Assembly: GCA_022712895.1 (NCBI GenBank)
Contig: JAFLJS010000001.1
Coordinates: 1-46,576 of the forward strand
DNA length: 46,576 bases
Reading direction: 5' to 3'
DNA from: Desulfocapsa sp.
Lineage (GTDB): Bacteria; Desulfobacterota; Desulfobulbia; Desulfobulbales; Desulfocapsaceae
Translations under genes and position numbers: made by a program
The notes under the pieces: model-generated
The model's input: only the letters and a program-made list of their open reading frames with translations
Database searches by the model: none
What the model was told of the DNA's origin: nothing
Part shown: positions 25,490 through 37,665 of the stretch, piece after piece
Numbering within the stretch: the first letter of the stretch is position 1
How the letters are laid out: each line of letters begins with the position of its first letter

Positions 25490-28120
25490 TCAGGTCATAT
25501 AGCAGAAAGCACCTGCAAAAACTGATAGAAAGCTGAACGGTAGTAACAAGTCCAGGGCTCTTACTTCTGTCTCCTGCTTTGCCCTTTCCACTATTTTGTA
25601 AGTGGCGTAAAATGCAGCTAACAGACCACCGCCTACGATTAGTGTTTTTAAGACATCGGTACTGTCTTGACTAATCAGACGCAGATTTTGATAAGAATAG
25701 GTAAGGTCGAGTATTTCACGTATATTTGGTACAATACGTCTAGCTCCTCTGATGAATATTTCTAGATGGAATGCCAGGTAACCACCAAGTATCAGAGGTA
25801 TAAATCCATATCCCAACAGTGGTCGAAAAAGTTTTTTGTTCATCTTCACAACGAGACACTGTGCCTCAACAAGCAGGAAATACCCCACTTGAAAAAGGAT
25901 AATGAGACCGAAAAACAATATACTTGCAGCAATATAATCAGAGATTACCAGTCCATTTCTGGCTGAAAAGGAGACCAGTTGTACCGTCAGTTCAGAGAAT
26001 TTGGCGTTTAGCGCAAATGGAAAAAGAATCGCTCCCATGGATACAATAAGAAAACTGTCTGCTTTTCTTGGAGTTCCCTGTCCCCATAACTCTTCCGGGG
26101 CTAACCTGACATTTAACTGGATGGAACCGTTACTACAGTTTTTGATACATTTTCCACACATTATACAATCGCGGTTATTATCAACCAGATATGGATGCCT
26201 GAACATGGGACAACCTGGAGATACCGCATCACCTGCAAAGCAGGAATGGTTCCTACATTGTTTTAAGCATACATGTTGGTTGGCGCGTAATTCAAGTATG
26301 GCAGGCATGGAGAAAATTGCATTGACTGCACCCAGAGGACAAATATATCGACACCAGGCTCTCCTGGAGAAAAGGGCACTGAAAATGATTGATCCAAATG
26401 AGATAACGAGAAGAATTCCACCGGTGAGGTAAGGGTTTTCATAAGCATTCCAAACGATTTCTACCCAGAATACAAGTATACAGAGTACAGCCATTATCCA
26501 GCCGGAATACTGCTTTATGAAAGCAGGTGCTCTTTTGTAAGGTTTTATTATGTTCTGTAGCAGTGATCCAGGAGTTGCAAGGGGGCAGACGCTGCACCAT
26601 ATTCTTGCAAGAAAAAAAAATGAAAAGAACATTAGTGGCCAGCCGATTGTCCACCCCATGGTCAGGCCAATGTTTGCACCTGAATCCTGAGTTCCAAAAA
26701 AAAGGCAGAGAATTGTGACTAGTAGTACACATGCAATAATGATTTGCGGAACCTTTGGAAAGATGGAACTGTTGAGGAATTTATTCACCCAGGGGATGCG
26801 CAGAATATTATACTCCCATTTCCCCTCGCTTTTGGGTAAGCCGAGGAGAATTTGATCGGGAGTGATTTTGTCTTCTTTGGACAGCATCACTGCCCTGCGG
26901 ATAACACCTGATAATTCCTTCAAATTTCCTGGCCAATCATAGTTCATTAAAACGCCCAGTGTTTCCTGCGGTAGCTGGTGAACACTTTTCCCGTATTCTT
27001 TGCTGTAATAACTAAGGTAATGGGAGATTAGCCGGGGGAGATCTTCTTTATGCTGACAAAGGGGGGGGACGGAGAAACTCTGTTTTTCGAAAATCTCAAG
27101 TAGTTCAGGGAGTAAATATTTATTTGTTTTTAGATCATCAAGATTGTGATCTGATAAAAATACAATTCGTGATTGAAGTGCATGTTGCTGACTACTGCCA
27201 ACACGAGTAAAGGTCTGGTTTCGCAGCAATCCCAATAAACATTCTTGCAGTTCTTTGCCCATGAGGTGTACATGGGTAAACGTAAGGGTACCACCGGAGG
27301 TCTTTTCAAATAATCCTGCTTTTGGTGCCGGGGCAAAGGGGTGGAAGTTTTGTCCTTCACCAAAAAGCTTCCTGCCGATATGTTCAAAACTATCTTTCCG
27401 CAGGTCAAGTTCCCGATACGGACTCTCTTTTCGTGATGATTGCAGGTGAATCTGTCTTGCAATGGTTGATTTGCCCGTGCCAAACTCTGCACAAAGAATG
27501 TAGGGCTCACTGTTCTCTGCACAGTTATCTATAAAGGCCTGCGTTTTTCGAGCTGTTTTTGATGTTCGGATAGCGGCGTTTTTTTTTGCAACAACTCTCG
27601 GTAGTCGATGGCTCTGTACGGATCTGTCTTCAAAAAGCATCACGTCATCTGCGTTCAACTCTTCTCTGTCGTAGTATTGTCTCCTGTGGGCTTGTGCTTG
27701 ATAAGCAAACCTGAGACGGTTAGCCAGAACTGCGTCGAGTTTGCTGTGGATTCTGCTGTGACCTAGGATGGATGATCTGAAAAATCGCTTGTCAAAACAA
27801 ATAAGAACAAGGTCATTGTGTGCCCGTACATCGAGTGAACGTGGTTCTGATCGCAGGAGCCCGGTCTCACCAAAATGACCGCCAGGTCCAATACGACAAA
27901 CGATTTTATTCTCTTTGTCTGGCAGTGAGACTATAAGCTCCACTTCTCCAACGGCGATAATATAAAAAACATCACTGGCGTCACCTTTCTTGTAGAGATA
28001 TTTTCCCTGATTTATTCTCTCTACCCTGGCAACTTCAGCATAAGAACGTAGCTCGGAATCACTAACATCTTTTAAAATAACAGAATGTCTAAGGTGTTTG
28101 GTGATGAGTGTTCGTTGCAT
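25490..28120 (-). CDS. cNMP-binding / degenerate sigma-54 AAA+ / NapH-CcoG-type membrane polyferredoxin fusion
   Basis: 876 residues. About 15-120: Crp-type cyclic-nucleotide-binding fold (GDASDVFYIIAVGEVEL, GPGGHFGETGLL). About 190-430: an AAA+ domain of the sigma-54 activator type with intact Walker A (AEFGTGKSTIARQ) and the sensor/lid region (LMNYDWPGNLKELSGVI). The GAFTGA sigma-54-contact loop is absent and Walker B is changed to GGTLTFTHVHLM, lacking the DE pair. From about 450: membrane helices and a polyferredoxin like NapH/NosR/CcoG (CSVCPLATPGS, CRYICPLGAVNA, CIMCGKCIKNC, then more helices). No C-terminal DNA-binding HTH is present. It may be a redox- or nucleotide-gated membrane electron-transfer protein or sensor. 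It lies beside the hydrogenase operon, same strand; a functional link is inference. Confidence 0.88.
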   Translation of the reverse strand: MQRTLITKHLRHSVILKDVSDSELRSYAEVARVERINQGKYLYKKGDASDVFYIIAVGEVELIVSLPDKENKIVCRIGPGGHFGETGLLRSEPRSLDVRAHNDLVLICFDKRFFRSSILGHSRIHSKLDAVLANRLRFAYQAQAHRRQYYDREELNADDVMLFEDRSVQSHRLPRVVAKKNAAIRTSKTARKTQAFIDNCAENSEPYILCAEFGTGKSTIARQIHLQSSRKESPYRELDLRKDSFEHIGRKLFGEGQNFHPFAPAPKAGLFEKTSGGTLTFTHVHLMGKELQECLLGLLRNQTFTRVGSSQQHALQSRIVFLSDHNLDDLKTNKYLLPELLEIFEKQSFSVPPLCQHKEDLPRLISHYLSYYSKEYGKSVHQLPQETLGVLMNYDWPGNLKELSGVIRRAVMLSKEDKITPDQILLGLPKSEGKWEYNILRIPWVNKFLNSSIFPKVPQIIIACVLLVTILCLFFGTQDSGANIGLTMGWTIGWPLMFFSFFFLARIWCSVCPLATPGSLLQNIIKPYKRAPAFIKQYSGWIMAVLCILVFWVEIVWNAYENPYLTGGILLVISFGSIIFSALFSRRAWCRYICPLGAVNAIFSMPAILELRANQHVCLKQCRNHSCFAGDAVSPGCPMFRHPYLVDNNRDCIMCGKCIKNCSNGSIQLNVRLAPEELWGQGTPRKADSFLIVSMGAILFPFALNAKFSELTVQLVSFSARNGLVISDYIAASILFFGLIILFQVGYFLLVEAQCLVVKMNKKLFRPLLGYGFIPLILGGYLAFHLEIFIRGARRIVPNIREILDLTYSYQNLRLISQDSTDVLKTLIVGGGLLAAFYATYKIVERAKQETEVRALDLLLPFSFLSVFAGAFCYMT

Positions 28121-28228: not shown

Positions 28229-28471
28229 TTACTGTTCCGCCTCTGCTTTGGCTTTCATGGTTTTGTAGTGGTCAGAATCAGTAACTTTCATCTGTTCCAA
28301 CTTTTCTATTTCAGTGCGAGTTAAATGGAAATGTCCGCAAGCTGGGCAGCTTCCATCAAATTCACTGCCGACAGATCGCTCCTTGAGTTCTTCGACGGTC
28401 ATATGATCTATCTTGCCACATACTCCGCTGGGGTTTTCTGCTCGGACCTGAGTTCGTTTATGAGCTGACAT
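28229..28471 (-). CDS. Small zinc-ribbon-like protein at the end of the hydrogenase operon
   Basis: 80 residues from an ATG at 28471 preceded by GGAGG at 5-nt spacing; the longer upstream frame lacks a ribosome site. It contains GVCGKIDHMTVEELKERSVG and GSCPACGHFHLTRTEIEKLE: one isolated Cys, one CPxCG pair with nearby His residues, and helical charged ends. A rubredoxin- or zinc-ribbon-like metal site is plausible. I do not recognise the family. It follows mvhA by about 110 bp, with a stable hairpin between, so its expression may be uncoupled from the operon. Confidence 0.75.
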   Translation of the reverse strand: MSAHKRTQVRAENPSGVCGKIDHMTVEELKERSVGSEFDGSCPACGHFHLTRTEIEKLEQMKVTDSDHYKTMKAKAEAEQ

Positions 28472-28578: not shown

Positions 28579-30027
28579 CTAATTGAGAATCCTGTCGATT
28601 TCATTTCCTTCAGGGTTAACAATACTTATTGCAATGGGGATACCGCCATCCAGGCGGTGAGTTGCGCAGGACATTCAGGGGTCGTAAGCTCTTACAGCCA
28701 TTTCCACTTGGTTGAGCAGTCCTTCATTGTACACACCATTTTTAATAAGGGTGGTGGCGGCTTGTTTCACACTCATATTCATTGGTGCGATATTGTGCGT
28801 CGTGCCTACTATAAGGTTTGCTTTGACGATACAGCCATTGTCATCAGTGGTGTAGTCGTGGATAAGTGTTCCTCGCGGGGCTTCCACTATGCCCACACCT
28901 CTTCCAGCTTTTGGCTCCGCTTTAGTTCGCACGTTGGGGTCAGTGATACCTTCCCATTCGAGCAGTTCAATGGTTCGCTCGCAGGCATACACCATTTCAA
29001 TCAGTCTCGCATAATGATACAACAAGGTTTGCTGGGCGGGACGTCCAAATGTACTTCGAAATGCTTCAAATGCTTCTTGGGCTCGTGGTGTTGAAATGGA
29101 ATCACACACATTGATACGGGCCAGAGTATTTGCTCGGTAAATACCCTTGGGAGCATCCAGGCTCATGTCAAATCCTTCATTCCAGGATTTGGCATAGGGC
29201 ATTTTTGAGTATCCCCATGGTTCTACATGTTCGCCGATATAATCAAGATAGTCTTCACCTTCAAAATCTACATAACTGCCATCGATTTTCATCAGTCGCA
29301 GCTTTCCATCATAGAGCCGCAAAGAACCATCTTCACGATCAACAGTTCCAAGAAACCCGGTGTTGATTACACCAAGTTCTCCAATAACATCCATATATTT
29401 TTCAAATACATGGGTTATACCAAAGTCCAAAGCAAAACTGGCAAAGTCAAGGAGTGTTCTTGTTCCTTCCAGGAGTTCAAGACGCTCTTCTTCTGTCATC
29501 GGTTTGGCAAAACCACCAACTACACCGGCCACAGGATGAATTGCTTTGCCAGCAAATTTGTCGAGCATCATCTGCCCTAACTGGCGCATTTTAACAACTT
29601 GGGTTGCAATTTCAGGGACAGCCTTGACCACTCCCATAACATTCCTTACGGAATAGTCTGAGTCTGGGCCAAGGATGAAATCGGGTGACGCCAAGAAGAA
29701 AAAATGCAAAATCTTATCGTTTATGTGTGCCATAACCTGACACATCTCTCTTAACTTATGACCAGTGGCTGTGGGTGTTACCCCAAAGGCTTGATCGACT
29801 GCCTTGGTTGATGCCAGGTGATGCATCCATGGGCATATACCGCAGATACGGTTTACAATACGAGGAACTTCCTCTGCGGGCCGGCCCTCAATAAATTTTT
29901 CAAATCCGCGAAGGGACTGGATGTGGAGAAATGCGTCCTCCACATTGCCGCTATCATCAAGATGAATAGCAATTTTGGCATGTCCTTCAATGCGGGAAAC
30001 TGGTGCAATATTTATTACCTTTCCCAT
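28579..30027 (-). CDS. mvhA: [NiFeSe] hydrogenase large subunit, F420-non-reducing (Mvh) type, selenoprotein
   Basis: 482 residues including Sec451. It holds the Ni-Fe site that splits H2. The N-terminal proximal motif is RICGICPWMHH. Near the C-terminus the sequence reads AYDP-U-MSC-ATH, i.e. DPUxxCxxH, with UGA (28675-28677) replacing the Cys that normally ligates Ni. The frame continues 25 residues past His457 (RLDGGIPIAISIV...) to TAG at 28579-28581; that tail is what the maturation protease should remove. A perfect SECIS-like hairpin follows the UGA. It starts right after mvhG, with GGAG in the mvhG end. A gene caller treating UGA as stop would lose the second Ni-ligand motif. Confidence 0.96.
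28642..28658 (-). promoter_or_regulatory. SECIS hairpin in mvhA
   Basis: On the minus strand ACCGCC-TGGAT-GGCGGT lies at nt 17-33 after UGA: a perfect 6-bp stem with a 5-nt loop containing GG. The same offsets and loop size recur in mvhD and the HTH-HdrCB gene, which strongly supports SelB-dependent selenocysteine insertion. Confidence 0.88.
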
Positions 30028-30028
30028 C

Positions 30029-30973
30029 TTATTTTTTCTCCGTTACAATCTTTTTTTTCGTAGGGCGTAGTCTTCCATGGGCCCCGGAAAACCTTAATAG
30101 TGATTTTTTGTCAATAACAGTTTTATAGTCAATACCATTACTTGCAAGGGCATTCATCATATCTAACAACTGGTTCCCATCTTTGCGAACAGGGCCAAAA
30201 CAGCCTCGGCAAGGAACCCTTGCACTGATACACCTTGGTGCACCTCGTTTGGCACATCCAGCAGCAGTTACCGGGCCCATACACATATACCCCTGTTCTA
30301 GAAGGCATCGCATCTCATCTAAAGGGGCACCAGGTTCAAATTCAGCATTTTCAAGGAATCGTTTCACCATATCCACGGCACCCTTCCCTTCACGTTTTGT
30401 GGGGCAGGTATCACAGACACTTTTTGTGGGAAGAACTGGGGGCCTGTCTTCCAATAGAGAAAAAATCACCTCAGCAATAAGTTCTGGATTCGGTGGACAG
30501 CCAGGAAGCTGCAAATCAATTTTGACTTTTTCATCACAGGCATAGACGCGATCAAGGGGGGCGGGAACCTCAATGGTTGGAACCTCAGAACCAGGATCAG
30601 TGCTTACTGTATTAAATATTCCCTGCCAGCTGTCAGCCCGATCCTGCCCATTCATAAGGGCTGGAATACCACCATGGGTGGCGCAACTGCCAAGGGCTAC
30701 GAGCACTTTACATTTTTTTCGCATTTCTTCGAGTATTTCCAGGTGCTCGTGGTTGCATACTCCACCACTAACAATACCCACTACGGCGTCGGGGATGGTA
30801 AGTGTCACCCCTTCACCGCATTGACCAAAATATTTGTGATCCATCAGGACAGGTGAATGAACTATGTCCAAAGCTTCTGTGATGATTGGAATGAGGTCTT
30901 CACCAATGTTCAGGATGGCAATTTCACAACCTGAACAGGATCCCAACGATTCCATAGCAGTAGTTACTCCCAT
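30029..30973 (-). CDS. mvhG: [NiFe] hydrogenase small subunit, Mvh type
   Basis: 314 residues. It carries Fe-S clusters moving electrons from the Ni-Fe site toward MvhD. The proximal-cluster motif SLGSCSGCEIA is at the N-terminus without a Tat signal, so the enzyme is cytoplasmic. Other Cys motifs are ALGSCATHGGIPAL, LPGCPPNPELI, CDTCPTKREG and the C-terminal RCISARVPCRGCFGP. The sequence matches F420-non-reducing hydrogenase gamma subunits. AAGGAG precedes the ATG. It ends one base before mvhA and starts 12 bp after mvhD, in a tight operon. Confidence 0.95.
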   Translation of the reverse strand: MGVTTAMESLGSCSGCEIAILNIGEDLIPIITEALDIVHSPVLMDHKYFGQCGEGVTLTIPDAVVGIVSGGVCNHEHLEILEEMRKKCKVLVALGSCATHGGIPALMNGQDRADSWQGIFNTVSTDPGSEVPTIEVPAPLDRVYACDEKVKIDLQLPGCPPNPELIAEVIFSLLEDRPPVLPTKSVCDTCPTKREGKGAVDMVKRFLENAEFEPGAPLDEMRCLLEQGYMCMGPVTAAGCAKRGAPRCISARVPCRGCFGPVRKDGNQLLDMMNALASNGIDYKTVIDKKSLLRFSGAHGRLRPTKKKIVTEKK

Positions 30974-30985
30974 TGTGTTCTCCTT

Positions 30986-31405
30986 TTATACCGCACTGGC
31001 GACTTCGCCATTCACAGGTCCTAGTTTTTTAATACGCTGAGTCATTTCAGTGACCGCTTCAACAAATTTGTCGGGTTCGGCAGAGGATACCCAACTCAGG
31101 CTAAGTCTTTCGGGTTCGTAACCGAAGTCTTGCAACAATTCAGTTACCATATCCTTCCGATCAAGTGCTTTTTGATTACCGTCCAGGTAATGACATTCAC
31201 CGAGGTGTCAGCCAAGTATCATGACTCCGTCGGCTCCTTGAGATAACGCATCCATAATAAACTCGGGATGCACCATACCCGAACACATCACCCGGATAAT
31301 TCGAATATTGTGTGGATACTGCATTCTTGCCGTTCCTGCTAGATCAGCTGCTGCGTACGAGCACCAGTTGCAGCAGAATGCAACAATTTTTGGCTCAAAA
31401 CTCAT
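30986..31405 (-). CDS. mvhD: MvhD-type hydrogenase iron-sulfur subunit, selenoprotein
   Basis: 139 residues with Sec66. MvhD links the hydrogenase to HdrA through a [2Fe-2S] cluster. The N-terminus has [18 protein letters not shown] and [11 protein letters not shown]. Then [21 protein letters not shown] matches the family motif GCHPGDCHY with UGA (31208-31210) in place of Cys. The remaining 73 residues, including the DLxxxLGxxxERL-type segment ([13 protein letters not shown]), are in frame to TAA at 30986. The corresponding position is also Sec in methanogen VhuD. GGAG precedes the ATG. Reading UGA as stop would leave only 65 residues and no full cluster site. Confidence 0.95.
31175..31191 (-). 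promoter_or_regulatory. SECIS hairpin in mvhD
   Basis: On the minus strand ATTACC-TGGAC-GGTAAT lies at nt 17-33 after UGA. It has the same offset, stem length and loop type as the mvhA element, although the stem bases differ. Conserved shape with different sequence argues for a selected RNA structure. Confidence 0.88.
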
Positions 31406-31457
31406 GTGATCTACTCCTTTTAAATAATAATGAATTTATAGTTGCCTTGAGTTATCG

Positions 31458-31489
31458 TTGGCTTTCACAAGAAGTTTTGTGAAAGCCAA
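31458..31489 (-). repeat. Perfect 13-bp inverted repeat between hdrA and mvhD
   Basis: TTGGCTTTCACAA (31458-31470) and TTGTGAAAGCCAA (31477-31489) pair perfectly across a 6-nt loop. It sits in the 113-bp gap between the hdrA stop and the mvhD start, inside the operon. There is no T tract after it on the minus strand, so it is more likely an mRNA-processing or stability hairpin setting different hdrA and mvhDGA levels than a full terminator. Confidence 0.7.
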
Positions 31490-31518
31490 ATATATTTCAA
31501 GGTCGCATTATTTAGTTG

Positions 31519-34500
31519 TCAAGCTGCCAGTGCTGCACTGATTTGTGCTTTAATTTGCGGCATTGTGAATCCCGCAACATATACACCTCTTTTAGGGCAG
31601 GTACCCTGACACAATCCACAGCCTTTGCATTGCGCTTTGTTTATTAGAATATATTTATTCTCAGAACCATCTTCAGCAGTCTCTTCTTTGAGAGTGATCG
31701 CATGGTATGGGCACACATCAATGCAGAGAGCACAACCATCACAGAATTCTTTGTCAACTGTAGCCTTTATGGCGTCCAAGGCGACTTCTGTTTTGGAAAG
31801 CAGAGTAACTGCCCTGGCCGATGCGGCAAGTGCCTGGGTCACTGATTCTTCAACAGGTTTTGGATAGTGTGCCATTCCGGCGACAAACATACCGTCTGTT
31901 GAAAAGTCGACAGGTTTTAGTTTGACGTGGGCCTCCTGAAAAAAACCGTCACTGTCCACAGGTACCTTGTACAACTTCCCAAGTGTGGAAGCGTCCTTCC
32001 TGGGGCGTATTGCCGTGGCAAGGATGACCATATCGGCTTTCAGTGTCATGGGTCTGTGCAAAACATGATCCATGACTTCGACTTCAATATCAGATCCTGT
32101 TTCGGTTACTTTGGGTTTCTCGTGTAACTCGTAGTTGATAAAAATAACACCGAGTTTCCTGGCCTCCCTGTAGAGGGATTCGCGCTGGCCATAGGTACGC
32201 ATATCGCGATAAAGAATGTAAATGTTACGGTTTGGATTTTCTTTTTTGAGGGCAATAGCTGATTGTACTGAGTGGGTACAACAAACCTTCGAACAGTACA
32301 TATTGCCTTTTTCACGGGAACCTACACACTGAATAAACACTAGGTTTTCTGCTTGCTTGACATGTGTTTCGTTCAACTCGTAGAGTTTGTCAAACTGGAT
32401 AGCAGTTACAACCCTTGGGATTGAATCGAAGTTATACTCTGTGGGAACATAAGGTTCCCCACCGGTGGCAACGATTCCAGCACCATGCTCAATTACAATC
32501 TTGGATTTGTTCAGTCCTGTAATTGTTGAGCGAAAGTTTCCGACAAATCCTTCAACGGCTGTCACCTCTGCATTCTTGTGTATACTTATTTTTGTGTTTT
32601 CAGAAACCAGTTTAACCAAATTGGCAAGAGCTGTGGGAATATGTTCTCCAGACCAAGTGTGTTTTAGATCGCGTGCATTTCCGCCAAGGACATCGGTTCT
32701 TTCGACGAGATGGACCGGAAATCCCTGCTTTGCAATATTAAGGGCTGCTGTCATGCCCGCGACTCCGCCACCTATGACTAGTCCCGTCTGCGTGATACCA
32801 ACAGCAATAGGCCGCAGGGCTTTGTTGAGTAGTACTTTTGCAACAGCCATGCGCACGAGGTCATTTGCTTTTGCAGTGGCGGCCTTAGGGGTGCTGCTGT
32901 GGACCCAGGAGTTATGGTTTCGAATATTCGCCATTTCTACGAGATACTCGTTTAAACCGGCCGCTTTCAACGTTTCGCGAAACAGGGGCTCGTGGGTTCT
33001 GGGGGTACAGGCAGCAATGACAATCCGGTTCAGCTTCTTTTCGCGAATGGTTTGGGTGAGCATGTCCTGTGTATCTTGTGAACAGGAAAATAAATTTCGC
33101 TCGACGTATACAACGTCCGGGAGAGTAGCAGCATATTTTTCAACTGCTTCAACGTCGACAACTCCGGCAATATTGGAGCCACAGTGACAGACAAATACGC
33201 CTACACGAGGATCTTCGTCAGCGACTTCTCTTTCATCAGGAAACTCGACTTCAGTTGAAAGTTCAAACCGAGCAGGGGCAAGCAGTTCAGCCACAGATGC
33301 GGCAGCAGCTGATCCTTCAACAACACACTGAGGGATGTCTTTTGGACCTGCAAATGCACCACAGGTAAATATTCCCTGTTGTGAGGTCTGAACGGGAGAG
33401 AAGTCAGAGGTTGCAGCAAAGTTGTCCGCAGTAAGTTTTATTCCTGCATTTTGTGCTAGCTCAAGAACATGTTTTGGTGTCTGTAGTCCAACGCTCAAGA
33501 CAACAAGGTCGTAAGATTCTTCGATCTGGCGACCATCATCGTTGACGTAACTAAGGCGCAGATCTCCTTCAACTCCGTCGGTCTCAACGCCATTTACCCG
33601 ACAGCGAACAAAGCGAACGCCGGAGTCATTTTTGGCACGTTCCATGTACTGGTCAAAATCCTTGCCATGGGTTCTCATGTCCATATAAAAGATGGAGGCA
33701 CTCAATCCAGGCACGTGATCTTTTGCGATAACAGCTTCTTTGATGGCATACATGCAGCAAACGGATGAGCAATATCCGTTACCGCATAAATTCTCATCTC
33801 TTGAGCCGATGCATTGCAAAAAAGCGATTTTGTGAACAGGCTTACCGTCTGATGGTCTTACCAGGTGGCCTTCAGTTGGTCCTGAAGCGGCAAGGTAACG
33901 TTCTAGCTGCATGGAGGTGATTACATTAGGGAATACGCCATACCCCCATACTTTTGCATCAGTGGGGTCGTAGACTTCAAATCCTGGCGCAAGAACCACT
34001 GCACCAACATTGATCTCGTGAGTTTTCTCAGTATCATCAAAAAGGATGGCGCCTGCATCACAAACTTGTTCGCAGAATCCACATGCACCAGGCTTTTTAA
34101 GTCGGATACAGGAGTTAGGATCTATCTGGTACTTAAGCGGAACTGCCTGGGCGTATTTGACATAAATGGCTTTACGTTTACCCGCCTCAGCATCATATTC
34201 ATTGTCAACTTTTTTGGGACATTTATCCGTACAGGCTCCGCAGGCAATGCATTTGTCAGGGTCAACATAGCGAGGGGATTCTTTAACAGTTACAGTAAAA
34301 TTTCCGGCTTCACCTGAAATTGCAGAAACTTCGCTGAGAGTCAATAATTGTATATTTAAGTGCCGACCGCACTCCACCAGTTTTGGCGCAATTATTCACA
34401 TCGAACAGTCGTTGGTGGGGAATGTTTTATCAAGCTGGGCCATGGCACCGCCAATGGCACCGGATTTTTCAACGAGGTAAACGTAATACCCTGAATCGGC

Positions 34501-34578
34501 AAGATCCAGTGCAGTCTGCATTCCTGTGACTCCACCGCCTACGACCATTACTGATCCGATTTTTTTTGTGTCAAGCAT
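31519..34578 (-). CDS. hdrA: HdrA-type electron-bifurcating flavoprotein (long form), selenoprotein
   Basis: 1019 residues with Sec61. HdrA binds FAD and splits electron pairs from MvhD between ferredoxin and the HdrB-type disulfide site. An N-terminal Rossmann motif [16 protein letters not shown] is followed by [20 protein letters not shown], where UGA (34396-34398) replaces the Cys of the family motif CSMC. A ferredoxin motif [12 protein letters not shown] lies at about 105-120, a second FAD motif [16 protein letters not shown] at about 600, and two C-terminal 4Fe-4S motifs ([24 protein letters not shown]). The length fits the duplicated HdrA form. ATG 34578 has GGAG 9 nt upstream; the upstream in-frame extension lacks homology. 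HdrA with Sec is known from methanogens. Confidence 0.95.
34358..34374 (-). promoter_or_regulatory. SECIS hairpin in hdrA
   Basis: On the minus strand GAGTGC-GGTCG-GCACTT lies at nt 22-38 after UGA: a 6-bp stem (outermost pair G-U) with a 5-nt loop starting GG. It is 5 nt further from UGA than the other three but within the usual bacterial window. Confidence 0.8.
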
Positions 34579-34651
34579 GACAGATGTCTCCTTACAATTA
34601 TAAAAGACGATTACCCGAACCACTTATTAATGGTAGGGGGAATTAGTTTTC

Positions 34652-36103
34652 CTACTGTTTAGTTGGCAGGATCAGCGAATCAGCAACAAGTTCCCAAAGG
34701 TATTTAACCTCAACGTTGAGGTCATATTCTGTATTGAGGGATTTTTTTATCTGATCGCGGCAGTTGTGGCATGGCGCAATTACAAGCCTGGCACCAGATT
34801 CTGAAATCTGTCTTGCCTTGATGCGCCCATAAAAAACCCTCTCATCAGAGTAGGGCAATGCCCATGCGCCGCCTCCTGCGCCACAGCAATATGCGCCATT
34901 TTCCGCAGGGATGAGTTCTCTTACGTCTTCACAGCAGGCTCCGGTAATAGCTCGGCCTTCTTTAAAATATGCCTGGCCAAAGGCTTTTAAGGATTTTCTG
35001 CCATAGTTGCAGGGGTCATGATAGGCCACTGCTTCGTTGTGGATGGAACGGTCAAGTTTGATTTTTCCTTCCTCTATGTATTCAAGGAGAAGATCAAAAA
35101 CCGTTACAATTTTGAATTCTTTAAGTGCTTCAGGGTACCATCTGTTCAACCCGGACCGGGTTGCAAAGTATGCGTGGCCTCACTCGGGTAGGAGGAGGAC
35201 CTGACAGTTCAGCCTCCTCATGTTGTCTACGATTCTGCCAACAATGGCGCGCATTGCGTCATCGTCTCCGGAAAAGAGTCCCCAGTTAACACCTTCCCAG
35301 TTCTCGGAAGAAATTGTCCATGATTCGCCGGCTGCGTGAAAAATCTTCCACCACCATTTCATGTCATCCGGTTCGCCGAAAGGTTCTTTAGAGTTCACGG
35401 TCACCAGTACTCTGGCACCCTGTACGTCAACGGGTGCTTTGAAGCCGGGGCATTCGTCTGCGGCAAGTTCTTCTCCAAGATCTTCGCAAAGAAAGAGGAA
35501 GTCGTCCTTTGGAATACCCAGGTTATTTCCACGCTCCAGACACATCATCACACCTTTGTGGATAGGTCCTGGAACTTTATCGCGTTCGCGGGAGCCACGG
35601 ATTTTTCGCATGAGGGCAATTATCTGGATGTTGGCGGGGCAAGATTCTTCACATTTGCCACACATGGTGCATTTCCATGGCCATGAAGAATCAATTAGTT
35701 CGTCACTCATGCCAAGGGCAGCCATGCGTACAATTTTTCTCGGATCAAGCCCATCAACACCTGAAATAGGACATGCGCTGGCACATGTTCCACAAGTAAG
35801 GCATTCACTTGCCATGGAAGGATCAATGGCGAGTTGGCTTTTTGCCCCAGCCATCGGTATGGGTATGGCTTTGATATCCTTCAATGCTTCAATTGCAACA
35901 GGGTGGACATGGTTACCCGGATGGACATGTGGCTCACGCCCAAACTTTTCGCAGAGTTGTCGGTAGTCTTCGAACGGGATAAGGTATTTTTTGCCCGGAC
36001 CTTCTTTTGCTGCTAACGTGCCAGCGTTGATCCAGTTCCTTATTGTGTTACGGTGGACGCCAAACTCTTCTGCCATCTCGCTGACTTTAAATTCGTACAT
36101 CAT
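34652..36103 (-). CDS. HTH domain fused to HdrC/HdrB-like (CCG-domain) iron-sulfur protein, selenoprotein
   Basis: 483 residues with Sec308. About 1-55: MerR/excisionase-type HTH (FKVSEMAEEFGVHRNTIRNW, then PGKKYLIPFEDYRQL). About 100-165: two 4Fe-4S motifs, CLTCGTCASACP and CTMCGKCEESCP, as in HdrC. The HdrB/HdrD-like part follows: a first CCG region lacking its cysteines, then LLLPE-U-GHAYFATRSG, where UGA (35180-35182) replaces Cys of the LPECGHA motif. A complete second CCG domain follows (DPCNYGRK, GACCEDV, AYCCGAGGGAW, APCHNCRDQI). It would be the terminal disulfide- or unknown-acceptor-reducing subunit. ATG 36103 is chosen because GAGGTG lies 6 nt upstream; the GTG at 36112 is too close. 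The HTH may bind DNA autoregulatorily or serve as a protein-contact module. Confidence 0.92.
35147..35163 (-). promoter_or_regulatory. SECIS hairpin in the HTH-HdrCB gene
   Basis: On the minus strand CAACCC-GGTCC-GGGTTG lies at nt 17-33 after UGA: a perfect 6-bp stem with a 5-nt loop beginning GG. It has the same geometry as the mvhA and mvhD elements. Confidence 0.88.
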
Positions 36104-36113
36104 AAAGATCACC

Positions 36114-36608
36114 TCAATTAGCTGTATCGGTTAGGATTTTTGAAATTCTTTTACATGCTTCAGTTACTGCGCCAGACATGGCGGTAGATAATCCCGGATG
36201 GATTTCATCGGGGATAAATTGGACTTGTGCAGCAAGGATCAATATTTTTATTCCAGTATGCTCTTGAATTTCCTGGAGAAGGTTTACTGTTGGAAATTGA
36301 TGTAGGGAGAAATCGTGGATTTTTTTGGCTGGGATCATTTCAGGAAGTATCTCAAAAACTTCTCCAGGCTTACGGTCAGGAAAGTCGACAGCATCCAGAA
36401 TGATAATCTGTTCTGGACGACCTTCTTCAACTAAAAGGTAGTCGAAAAGATACTCACGCACGCATGTGCCAACATCTATGGCTTGAACAGTATCATCAAG
36501 GTCGTAGTGACTATTAAGCTCGTCAACAACAGCAGGGCCGTATCCATCATCGCCCATGATCAAGTTGCCGCATCCAAAAATCATCTTTGAGTATTGTTTC
36601 TGTTTCAT
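36114..36608 (-). CDS. Hydrogenase maturation endopeptidase (HycI/FrcD-type)
   Basis: 164 residues. It removes the C-terminal tail of the hydrogenase large subunit once nickel is inserted. The family's metal-binding Asp/Glu pattern is visible: IFGCGNLIMGDDGYGPAVV near the N-terminus, then IILDAVDFPDRKPGEVFEI and HDFSLHQFPTVNLL, with LILAAQVQFIPDEIHPGLS later. Peptidase M52 proteins nick after the His of the DPCxxCxxH motif. Here the substrate would carry DPUxxCxxH and a 25-residue tail. It leads the operon and stops about 10 bp before the HTH-HdrCB start. Confidence 0.93.
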   Translation of the reverse strand: MKQKQYSKMIFGCGNLIMGDDGYGPAVVDELNSHYDLDDTVQAIDVGTCVREYLFDYLLVEEGRPEQIIILDAVDFPDRKPGEVFEILPEMIPAKKIHDFSLHQFPTVNLLQEIQEHTGIKILILAAQVQFIPDEIHPGLSTAMSGAVTEACKRISKILTDTAN

Positions 36609-37110
36609 TGTGCAAACTATGCCTCATGTCAGAGTTGAAGTCTCTAAGTAGCATAATGGGTTGATGTTGGCAAGGGCTTTTTGAAGTAAATTTAGGATAG
36701 GTAAAATGTCGTAGGGTTGCGTGGTCACGTTTGTTTATGACGCTGACTGTGGCTTGTTGGGGATGGTGACCCTGCCGCTTAGTACGGTGTGCGAAATATG
36801 CAAAGTATGCACGAGGTGACTACGGTGGCCTGCTAGTGTGGCCAGCAGGATTTCTGTGTCACCAGATTTAAGCATCCACTTTCCTGACCTATCTAGTTCA
36901 TTCAATCACACTTAAAGTAAGACTGACGAGAAGTGGAAACTGGATTGACGCAGTGCTTGATAATCTATGGAACTTTTCCAGGAAGCAGTTGACTGTAGTT
37001 GTGTCTCTCACATATTCGCTGGATGTAGTCTCACCATATGATATAAGCTATGGAACGGGTTGTGAGGGCGAAGTGTCTGAGGTTGTGAGCTGGTCGGGCA
37101 GGCTTGGTAA
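36609..37110. other. Gene-free region upstream of the hydrogenase operon
   Basis: No supported gene is visible in these 502 bases. The hydrogenase operon promoter probably lies in the first 150 bp, but I found no clear -35/-10 pair and no GG-N10-GC sigma-54 site in the correct orientation. The distal part adjoins the decayed DUF1566 gene and is likely degraded sequence from it or its former neighbours. Confidence 0.45.
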
Positions 37111-37640
37111 TCAATAAATGGTGTTACTGTCTCTAAGTAAGGTGCGAACGCACCGAACATGATAGCTTTCAGTCTTCGCTTTCCAGAGATCGTCGCCATT
37201 TTCAAAAAAAACAACCCATGCACTTTGGTGGGCATCATTTGCAACAGTTGTTGACGACCAGTAGCTTGATGAATGGCTGGAGAGTACAGGATCTATGGCG
37301 GGAGAATATCTTTTGTAGTCGGTCAGCATATCAAACCCGTATGTGTGTCTACAACGGTCTGGTTATCGCTCTTCCGGTAGGAGGGTGATGTCGTTTGACA
37401 CTGTGCATCCAGACCAAAAAGGGGACGCTCGGCTGGTGGACAACTGGTCTCAGATCCGTTGGTATTAAAGCGTTCTGTCTGTCCTGTGTCCGGTAAAGGG
37501 TTCAAGTTTGTGGGCCTCGCGGAAACGGGTGCCAATAAGAGTGTAATAACCAGCAACACCCTATGTGATGCCTGAATACCGGATTTGGAAGTGGCGGAAG
37601 TGGAACAAGCTACACATAGATTAGGTCGTTGATTTTGCAT
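37111..37640 (-). pseudogene. Decayed DUF1566 (Lcl C-terminal domain) protein
   Basis: The upstream frame (37323-37640) has a signal-peptide-like start (VLLVITLLLAPVSA) and the DUF1566 lead-in NPLPDTGQT, then SYRKSDNQTVVDTHTGLIC before a stop. The downstream frame (37111-37329), one base shifted, carries the domain end: PAIDPVLSS, YWSSTTVANDAHQSAWVVFF, and YHVRCVRTL. In intact DUF1566 proteins these parts are joined by about 40-60 residues including a DWRLP motif, which is missing. I read this as a frameshift plus internal deletion. Confidence 0.75.
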
Positions 37641-37665
37641 GTTCTGTTCTTGTGGTATAAAAATG

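Follow-up and report, generated by a model that had tools for sequence, protein, structure and literature searches.

A Desulfocapsa operon with four recoded UGA codons, a helix-turn-helix-bearing HdrCB subunit and an operator-like direct repeat

The analysed window, a stretch of 46,576 nucleotides from Desulfocapsa sp., contains seven genes in the order maturation protease, HTH-HdrCB, hdrA, mvhD, mvhG, mvhA and a small gene encoding an 80-aa protein (Table 1). HdrA, MvhD, MvhG and MvhA are encoded together, as in the HdrABC-MvhADG complex. The complete order, headed by the protease and ended by the 80-aa gene, was found in 49 of the 60 loci of the class and in 51 of the 80 named loci. The 80-aa gene also occurred in hth-hdrA-mvhD clusters without mvhGA (4/60 and 3/80 loci); its product belongs to a family without a name, had no Pfam match above the cut-off, and was not described in the literature searched. 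The domains assigned to HTH-HdrCB, HdrA, MvhD and MvhA in the initial annotation were supported by profile, homology and fold matches, with most NCBIfam matches of the operon products falling below the models' own cut-offs.

Table 1. Features of the operon and its upstream region in the 46.6-kb window.
Feature	Position	Strand	Evidence
Second repeat copy, GCATATTTCGCACA, ~180 bp upstream of operon head	36788..36801	-	pattern match
Candidate operator, GCATAGTTTGCACAA, 9-bp direct repeat touching protease start codon	36608..36622	-	pattern match
Hydrogenase maturation protease (HycI/HupD family)	36114..36608	-	PF01750 72 bits (cut-off 23), TIGR00072 115 bits (cut-off 47)
HTH-HdrCB, predicted selenoprotein ('GlpC' in literature)	34652..36103	-	HTH, linker, HdrC-like 4Fe-4S, HdrB/HmcF-like domain
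HTH_17/excisionase-type helix-turn-helix of HTH-HdrCB	35930..36103	-	PF12728 37.7 bits (cut-off 27)
Sec codon of HTH-HdrCB, LPEUGHA	35180..35182	-	full-length frame with TGA as U; UGA, Cys or Ser in relatives
bSECIS-like hairpin of HTH-HdrCB, loop read GGUCC	35147..35163	-	-8.8 kcal/mol; 0/200 synonymous shuffles as stable
hdrA, predicted selenoprotein, tandem HdrA-HdrA	31519..34578	-	NF040770 977 bits, under its 1100 cut-off
Sec codon of HdrA, DCSMUII	34396..34398	-	full-length frame with TGA as U; homology to archaeal HdrA
bSECIS-like hairpin of HdrA, loop GGUCG	34358..34374	-	6/200 synonymous shuffles as stable
mvhD/vhuD, predicted selenoprotein	30986..31405	-	PF02662 188 bits (cut-off 22); MvhD of PDB 5odc, 8rvu, 9sw2
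Sec codon of MvhD, GVMILGUHLGEC	31208..31210	-	full-length frame with TGA as U
Candidate bSECIS hairpin of MvhD, loop UGGAC, weak	31175..31191	-	69/200 synonymous shuffles as stable, not significant
mvhG/vhuG small subunit, without in-frame UGA	30029..30973	-	NF045875 203 bits (cut-off 450), PF01058 100 bits (cut-off 27)
mvhA/vhuA, [NiFeSe] hydrogenase large subunit	28579..30027	-	VhuA model 495 bits (cut-off 800); MvhA/VhuA-type chains of PDB 9sfi, 9sw2, 5odc
Sec codon of MvhA, DPUMSCATH	28675..28677	-	full-length frame with TGA as U; VhuU model NF041786 36 bits (cut-off 70)
bSECIS-like hairpin of MvhA, loop UGGAU	28642..28658	-	0/200 synonymous shuffles as stable
80-aa Cys/His protein (CG..H..CPxCG..H), final conserved operon gene	28229..28471	-	best Pfam match CPxCG_zf 14.8 bits (cut-off 27.2)

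Sequence comparison confirmed that four genes each carry a selenocysteine codon in the form of a recoded UGA. As the initial annotation had proposed, reading one in-frame TGA per gene as U restored the full-length frames in the expected contexts, including DPUMSCATH of MvhA, which we take to be the Ni-ligand motif. A second TGA in the hdrA frame (31521-31519) is the hdrA terminator, because homology to archaeal HdrA stops there and the fold that follows is only weak (-2.4 kcal/mol). Among loci of the class, the HdrCB codon was TGA in 36 of 60 (Cys in 21, Ser in 3), the HdrA codon in 36 of 58 (Cys in 22) and the MvhD codon in 34 of 57 (Cys in 23). Homologues of these three proteins align with Cys at the same codon, in agreement with the proposed family Cys positions. 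The MvhA codon was TGA in all 50 class loci and in 52 of 53 named loci, the exception being a 50-bit match, and neither locus set held a clear Cys orthologue of MvhA. No TAA or TAG occurred at the Sec sites of the relatives covered, which had UGA, Cys or, in HdrCB only, Ser, with N at one locus. Under translation table 11 all four frames do break: among open reading frames of at least 80 aa, HTH-HdrCB splits into 310 + 165 aa, HdrA begins at an internal GTG, MvhA is shortened to 450 aa and MvhD is absent. The further expectation that standard annotation would break all four genes is nevertheless too general, because NCBIfam includes a VhuU selenoprotein model and accessions for Sec-HdrA and Sec-MvhD appear in the available part of a 2026 review, in a table (PMC13188914).

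The source genome also contains selA, selB, selC and selD, all above their cut-offs: tRNA-Sec (selC) scored 77.3 bits (gathering 47), selB 384 (cut-off 242), selA 614 (cut-off 268) and selD, which itself has one TGA, 373 (cut-off 125). In all four genes, hairpins with 5-nt loops lie 19-24 nt past the UGA. They exceeded the expectation from synonymous shuffles at three of the four sites (HdrCB, HdrA, MvhA), while shuffling the 48-nt segment that starts with the UGA by dinucleotides singled out only HdrA (5/200 as stable, vs 53 for HdrCB, 75 for MvhD and 43 for MvhA). Across the loci, a hairpin with z<-1 was present in 36/36 Sec rows and 6/21 Cys rows of HdrCB, in 35/36 and 7/22 of HdrA, in 13/34 and 5/23 of MvhD, and in 49/50 Sec rows of MvhA. 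The UGAs might instead be real stops, in genes that have decayed or yield truncated and separate products, which is how table 11 reads all four frames. We regard this as highly improbable, given UGA or Cys at the same codon across dozens of genomes with both flanks conserved, the complete Sec machinery, and hairpins of HdrCB, HdrA and MvhA that are kept in nearly all Sec rows but in a minority of Cys rows.

HdrB is defined by two CCG cluster motifs, and in archaea VhuU is a separate chain. The HTH-HdrCB protein has one CCG stretch only (Pfam PF02754, 362-456), so HdrB-type chemistry cannot be assumed. Its sequence matches HdrC of PDB 5odc/9sfi, and its predicted structure (pLDDT 84; residues 64-86 under pLDDT 50) matches EtfD, HdrB and HdrC folds in Foldseek. 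The models of GlpC proper were not reached (PRK11168 47 bits, cut-off 278; TIGR03379 34 bits, cut-off 279.9). Its best NCBIfam matches were HmcF, TmcB and DsrK of sulfate reducers (194, 172 and 131 bits), far under the cut-offs (750, 735 and 400) and starting past the HTH. The 'GlpC' subunit thus named in the literature here combines HdrC and HdrB in one polypeptide, preceded by a conserved helix-turn-helix at the N-terminus. In 79 of the 80 named loci the match started at query residue 5 or earlier, the remaining locus being cut by its contig, and G16, V17, R19, N20, T21, R23 and W25 were invariant in the alignment.

A four-selenoprotein operon of this kind is already known since 2006. In Syntrophobacter fumaroxidans and Desulfotalea psychrophila it takes the form glpC-hdrA-frhD-frhG-frhA with Sec in four genes, according to the available part of Zhang et al. 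(2006, PMC1794560), and the available part of the 2026 review restates such an operon for Deltaproteobacteria (PMC13188914). Compared by description, the operon of PMC1794560 shares the gene order, the four selenoprotein families and a self-clustered hdrA ('hdrA-hdrA gene'), whereas that part of the paper is silent on any operator, on an HTH in the protein encoded by glpC, and on genes for the maturation protease and the 80-aa product. Desulfobacterium autotrophicum HRM2 likewise has a Sec cytoplasmic hydrogenase adjoining Sec-HdrA (mvhA2DG-hdrA1) and a reported Sec-HdrD of HdrCB type, but in the available part of PMC2702500 this HdrD is not described as HTH-fused and the cluster adjoins HysAB. 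The archaeal Vhu/Mvh-HdrABC complexes (PDB 5odc, 7bkb, 8rvu, 9sfi, 9sw2) share MvhA, MvhD, HdrA and HdrC homology and the HdrB fold; they differ in having HdrB and HdrC as separate chains, a non-tandem HdrA of ~650 aa and, in PDB 9sfi, a VhuA that ends at 418 aa. To this known system the Sec operon described here brings many further members and a clear Sec/Cys series. In our view, the HTH fusion and the operator-like element matter more. Neither the HTH fusion nor the 9-bp repeat was found described in the literature searched, including the available parts of PMC1794560, PMC2702500 and PMC545781.

The pattern GCA[CT]N5GCACA has two matches in the window, both upstream of the operon. At the operon head, GCA(C/T)-N5-GCACA occurred in 61 of 75 usable named loci vs 1.1 expected, and a backward-read control gave 0; these operon heads had also served to define the pattern before it was counted in them, and the -200/+50 frame followed an earlier count of 60/80 in -150/+60. 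The independent checks are the class scan and the hydrogenase small-subunit test. Elsewhere the repeat preceded genes for the hydrogenase small subunit, HypF and HdrA, while 19 of 50 further repeat regions had no recognisable hydrogenase or Hdr gene. The source genome contains 12 matches to GCAYN5GCACAA vs 5 for the backward pattern. Beyond the site in the window, a look at the four longest ORFs per locus placed none of these clearly beside a hydrogenase gene, and the genome's own small-subunit gene (C53) is without the repeat. A strict sigma-54 promoter pattern was found in 0 of 68 upstream regions (49 in the window vs 44 expected, no excess), and the best inverted repeat in 3-4 of 65, the signal being a direct repeat. 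A role as ribosome-binding or coding element was rejected because same-strand copies lie 90-533 bp before the small-subunit Tat motif and because the frame of the repeat relative to the gene varies between clades (by eye).

Taken as a whole, the locus is probably best explained as a seven-gene, repeat-controlled operon for an H2-driven Mvh/Hdr Sec complex. Its products would be a soluble hydrogenase of the [NiFeSe] Mvh/Vhu type and, attached to it, a heterodisulfide-reductase module, and homology fits a soluble H2-oxidising complex in which bifurcation is inferred. MvhA would cleave H2 at its Ni-Sec site, and the electrons would reach the FAD of HdrA by way of MvhG and MvhD. HdrA would then bifurcate them, one branch leading to ferredoxin and the other across the HdrC-like clusters to the HdrB-like site in HTH-HdrCB. 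There, Sec close to the cluster motif would assist in the reduction of an acceptor with a disulfide or trisulfide, perhaps DsrC, a family found twice in the source genome and linked to the operon by co-presence only. Alternatively, HdrA and HTH-HdrCB might hand the H2 electrons to one acceptor (e.g. DsrC or a thiol carrier), or work in reverse and make H2. The single CCG stretch, the best but far sub-threshold matches to HmcF, TmcB and DsrK, and a tandem HdrA unlike archaeal HdrA (residues 10-387, 457-613 and 849-1017 matching 143-513, 1-157 and 483-642) are in line with this alternative. We consider it rather unlikely, however, as HdrA retains FAD-type and ferredoxin domains (Pfam) and MvhD is kept, as in solved Hdr-Mvh complexes.

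Transcription of the operon is probably governed by the GCAC-N5-GCACA repeats, as part of a hydrogenase regulon, and the regulator may be the HTH of HTH-HdrCB itself. Binding of the repeat by this HTH is plausible. Two features of a trigger enzyme are present, a DNA-binding domain in an enzyme subunit and, at the operon that encodes it, a conserved operator-like element. A tentative reading, somewhat less likely than not, is that HTH-HdrCB, the acceptor-side subunit of the H2-driven Hdr complex with its Sec and iron-sulfur clusters, acts as transcription factor of a hydrogenase regulon in Desulfobulbales-type bacteria. It would bind the 9-bp direct repeats both at the operon that encodes it and at genes for the hydrogenase small subunit, HypF and HdrA, and thereby couple hydrogenase expression to the redox (or selenium) state of the active site. 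There is, however, a nearly even chance that another regulator binds the repeat and that the HTH is structural or acts elsewhere. The repeat preceded the small-subunit gene in 32 of 60 genomes with HTH-HdrCB vs 5 of 42 without detected HTH-HdrCB (G025, G027, G029, G060, G147), among 102 genomes forming the clade at ~70% identity or more and counted by coordinates (178/257 with some match). This association was not significant within genera (p 0.22), and seven motif-bearing genomes without the orthologue had no relative of the HTH domain (G027, G029, G044, G061, G107, G147, G252), which favours another regulator. Against it, besides the overall difference, each of the five exceptions comes from an assembly in 320-640 contigs and from a genus in which other members have HTH-HdrCB, and in 5 of 9 loci without a protease gene (L142, L169, L171, L172, L190) the repeat lies at most 153 bp before HTH-HdrCB. 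An HTH on an electron-transfer subunit and a conserved operator-like element, also at other hydrogenase genes, together make a testable model of how hydrogen metabolism is tuned.

The Sec/Cys series also revealed joint switching, which was not found described in the literature searched. HdrCB and HdrA lose Sec together while MvhA stays Sec, with independent events too few for significance. On a quick IQ-TREE tree of HTH-HdrCB only, with long-branch warnings, independent pairs agreed in 3.5 of 4 cases for HdrCB-HdrA and in 2.6 of 3 for both HdrCB-MvhD and HdrA-MvhD, and none were opposite, numbers at which sign tests cannot reach 0.05. The joint change to Cys, with MvhA remaining Sec, suggests that the HdrCB and HdrA sites work as a unit.

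With TGA read as selenocysteine (Sec), the minus strand of the window encodes HTH-HdrCB, HdrA, MvhD, MvhG and MvhA. The initial annotation had placed a UGA in four of these genes, and all four codons were recovered by the Sec-reading translation at the positions claimed (coordinates in the table refer to the last base of each codon). In hdrA, a second TGA further on is the terminator. All four genes were broken under translation table 11. As contig C4, the window is part of a genome of 3.68 Mb with a listed completeness of 100%, and a search of this genome for selA, selB, selC (tRNA-Sec) and selD found all of them above the cut-offs.

Coordinates of the Sec operon and other features
Feature	Position	Strand
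HTH-HdrCB, hdrA, mvhD, mvhG, mvhA	36103-28579	-
UGA in HTH-HdrCB	35180	-
UGA in hdrA	34396	-
UGA in mvhD	31208	-
UGA in mvhA	28675	-
876-aa protein	25490-28120	-
Stretch of about 1 kb without convincing gene, upstream of the operon; contains the second repeat copy	36609-37665	
Second Sec-MvhD gene of the same genome (L197)	C45:22080-22448	

The operon adds to an already known type, because a 2006 report describes genes in the same order, four of which (glpC, hdrA, frhD and frhA) encode Sec, in three operons of Syntrophobacter fumaroxidans and in Desulfotalea psychrophila (PMC1794560). A 2026 review restates the 'four-selenoprotein-gene operon' (PMC13188914), and a Sec MvhA2DG-HdrA1 cluster is reported for HRM2 (PMC2702500). 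The cultured relatives Desulfopila aestuarii (L133) and Desulfoprunum benzoelyticum (L139) also carry the operon. The full order, from the protease gene through HTH-HdrCB, hdrA, mvhD, mvhG and mvhA to the gene of an 80-aa Cys/His protein, was present in 49 of 60 loci and in 51 of the 80 named loci (the best 80 of 144); many loci without the full order appear to sit on short contigs. HTH-HdrCB, hdrA and mvhD occurred without mvhGA in L072, L073, L093-L095, L097, L142, L143, L169, L171 and L172. A Pfam search with the 80-aa protein gave no match above the cut-off. Next to the operon, the 876-aa protein combines cyclic-nucleotide-binding, sigma-54 AAA+ and NapH-like 4Fe-4S domains, and Pfam (threshold 0.001) found no DNA-binding domain in it; among 80 relatives (the best 80 of 144), two had matches to it close to the operon, all of them weak.

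MvhD, MvhG and MvhA matched Vhu/Mvh families, and MvhD and MvhA also matched chains of solved complexes. The top NCBIfam match of HdrA was HdrA2 (977 bits; cut-off 1100). Its parts map to residues 143-513, then 1-157, then 483-642 of a solved archaeal HdrA; judged by its sequence, it is a tandem, N-terminally shortened HdrA. HTH-HdrCB contains an HTH_17 domain (37.7 bits, above the cut-off; HTH at about residues 1-60) besides a 4Fe-4S region resembling that of HdrC and a single CCG stretch, and it matched HdrC of solved complexes by sequence. Its predicted structure (pLDDT 84) has a low-confidence linker between HTH and body (blocks 61-100 at 43 to 66), and in Foldseek the body matched EtfD, a LutA model, HdrB and HdrC. 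GlpC models rejected its identification as GlpC.

In the best reading, electrons would pass from H2 to the Ni-Sec site of MvhA and through MvhG and MvhD to the FAD of HdrA, where one branch would lead to ferredoxin and the other to the HdrB-like site of HTH-HdrCB. Motif and fold would place the Sec of HTH-HdrCB near the cluster. DsrC, found twice in the genome, is a candidate second acceptor by analogy with HmcF/TmcB/DsrK, which have a role with DsrC.

We compared the codons at the Sec sites in 60 loci from genomes of the same class, a set overlapping the 80 named loci. The HTH-HdrCB codon was TGA in 36 loci, Cys in 21 and Ser in three; HdrA had TGA in 36 and Cys in 22 (two not covered), and MvhD had TGA in 34 and Cys in 23 (three not covered or set aside). 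The MvhA codon was TGA in all 50 covered loci. Among the best 80 of the 144 confirmed loci, the patterns of HTH-HdrCB, HdrA, MvhD and MvhA were UUUU (37), CCCU (9), UUCU (4), SCCU (2) and incomplete (28). The codons of both HTH-HdrCB and HdrA could be read in 75 of the named rows; 54 of these pairs were U-U, 18 C-C, two S-C and one S-U, with no U-C or C-U pair. This co-change corresponds to about four independent contrasts on the tree, none in the opposite direction, and a sign test cannot reach significance because the contrasts are so few. The Ser codons (TCG, TCA, TCC) at the HTH-HdrCB site occurred in L080, L082, L088, L145, L157 and L192, the last of which still has Sec in HdrA. The window's own genome holds four MvhD genes, two with TGA; the second Sec-MvhD adjoins an HdrA.

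Hairpins with five-base loops (GGUCC, GGUCG, UGGAC, UGGAU) follow 19-24 nt 3' of the UGAs. Synonymous-codon shuffles were equally stable in 0/200 cases for HTH-HdrCB, 6/200 for HdrA and 0/200 for MvhA; the MvhD hairpin did not exceed its shuffles (69/200 as stable). Against dinucleotide shuffles of 48 nt, the HdrA hairpin alone stood out. Mean z from synonymous-codon shuffles was -4.5 (HTH-HdrCB), -2.7 (HdrA), -1.9 (MvhA) and -0.9 (MvhD) in Sec rows, and -0.4 (HTH-HdrCB), -0.2 (HdrA) and -0.45 (MvhD) in Cys rows. Some Cys rows retained the hairpin (z < -1 in 7/22 Cys-HdrA rows), as would be expected of a recent Sec-to-Cys change. The SECIS-like hairpin (-8.8 kcal/mol) behind the Cys codon of hdrA in locus L070 may be a fossil of such a change.

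A search for the target of the HTH brought up a direct repeat with a 9-bp period, GCA(C/T)-N5-GCACA, at the operon head. Its 10-mers were common to 17 of 65 upstream regions (at most three in shuffles). Between -200 and +50 of the operon head, the repeat occurred in 61 of the 75 loci with operon-head DNA among the best 80 of 144 (1.1 expected), at 79 times its density in the rest of the loci, counted on the related loci from which the pattern itself was derived. The backward pattern occurred at no operon head and three times elsewhere in the named loci. Both matches in the 46.6 kb of the window lie upstream of the operon. In five of nine loci without a detected protease gene (L142, L169, L171, L172, L190), the repeat lay at most 153 bp before HTH-HdrCB. 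The stricter GCACWNTTYGCACAA was present in 65 of 257 genomes of the class (four matches for the backward pattern): 53 of the 94 that have an HTH-HdrCB match at E < 1e-100 and 12 of the other 163 (p = 5e-18 by Fisher's test, uncorrected for relatedness of the genomes).

Of 60 genomes that encode HTH-HdrCB, 32 also had the repeat within 800 bp upstream of the hydrogenase small-subunit gene, compared with 5 of 42 without HTH-HdrCB (p = 2e-5); the backward pattern occurred there once in 77.7 kb. A hydrogenase regulon bearing GCA(C/T)-N5-GCACA is well supported. That HTH-HdrCB regulates it is put forward as a hypothesis, because the association disappeared within genera (32 observed vs 30.6 by permutation, p = 0.22) and the five exceptional genomes carry the repeat upstream of the small-subunit gene without a detected HTH-HdrCB.

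Fifty repeat regions, chosen from the class scan of GCACWNTTYGCACAA with most operon heads left out, were classed by the ORFs beside the site, with names assigned by eye and eight proteins tested by profile. Eighteen were near a periplasmic-type hydrogenase small-subunit gene, six before a divergent hdrA, two at hypF, two at a dihydroorotate-dehydrogenase-like gene and two at the operon head; one was cut by a contig end. Nothing recognisable stood beside the site in 19, five of which are one coding sequence common to one genus. The operon shares an intergenic region with such a gene in L265 (hypF) and in L266 (small subunit). In the profile test, two small subunits (TIGR00391), both HypF (TIGR00143) and both dehydrogenase-like proteins exceeded the cut-offs, and HdrA2 was the top match of two HdrA proteins, at 795 and 810 bits against a cut-off of 1100. 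The repeat lay 85-281 bp upstream of the dihydroorotate-dehydrogenase-like gene in L217 and L253, which belong to two genera.
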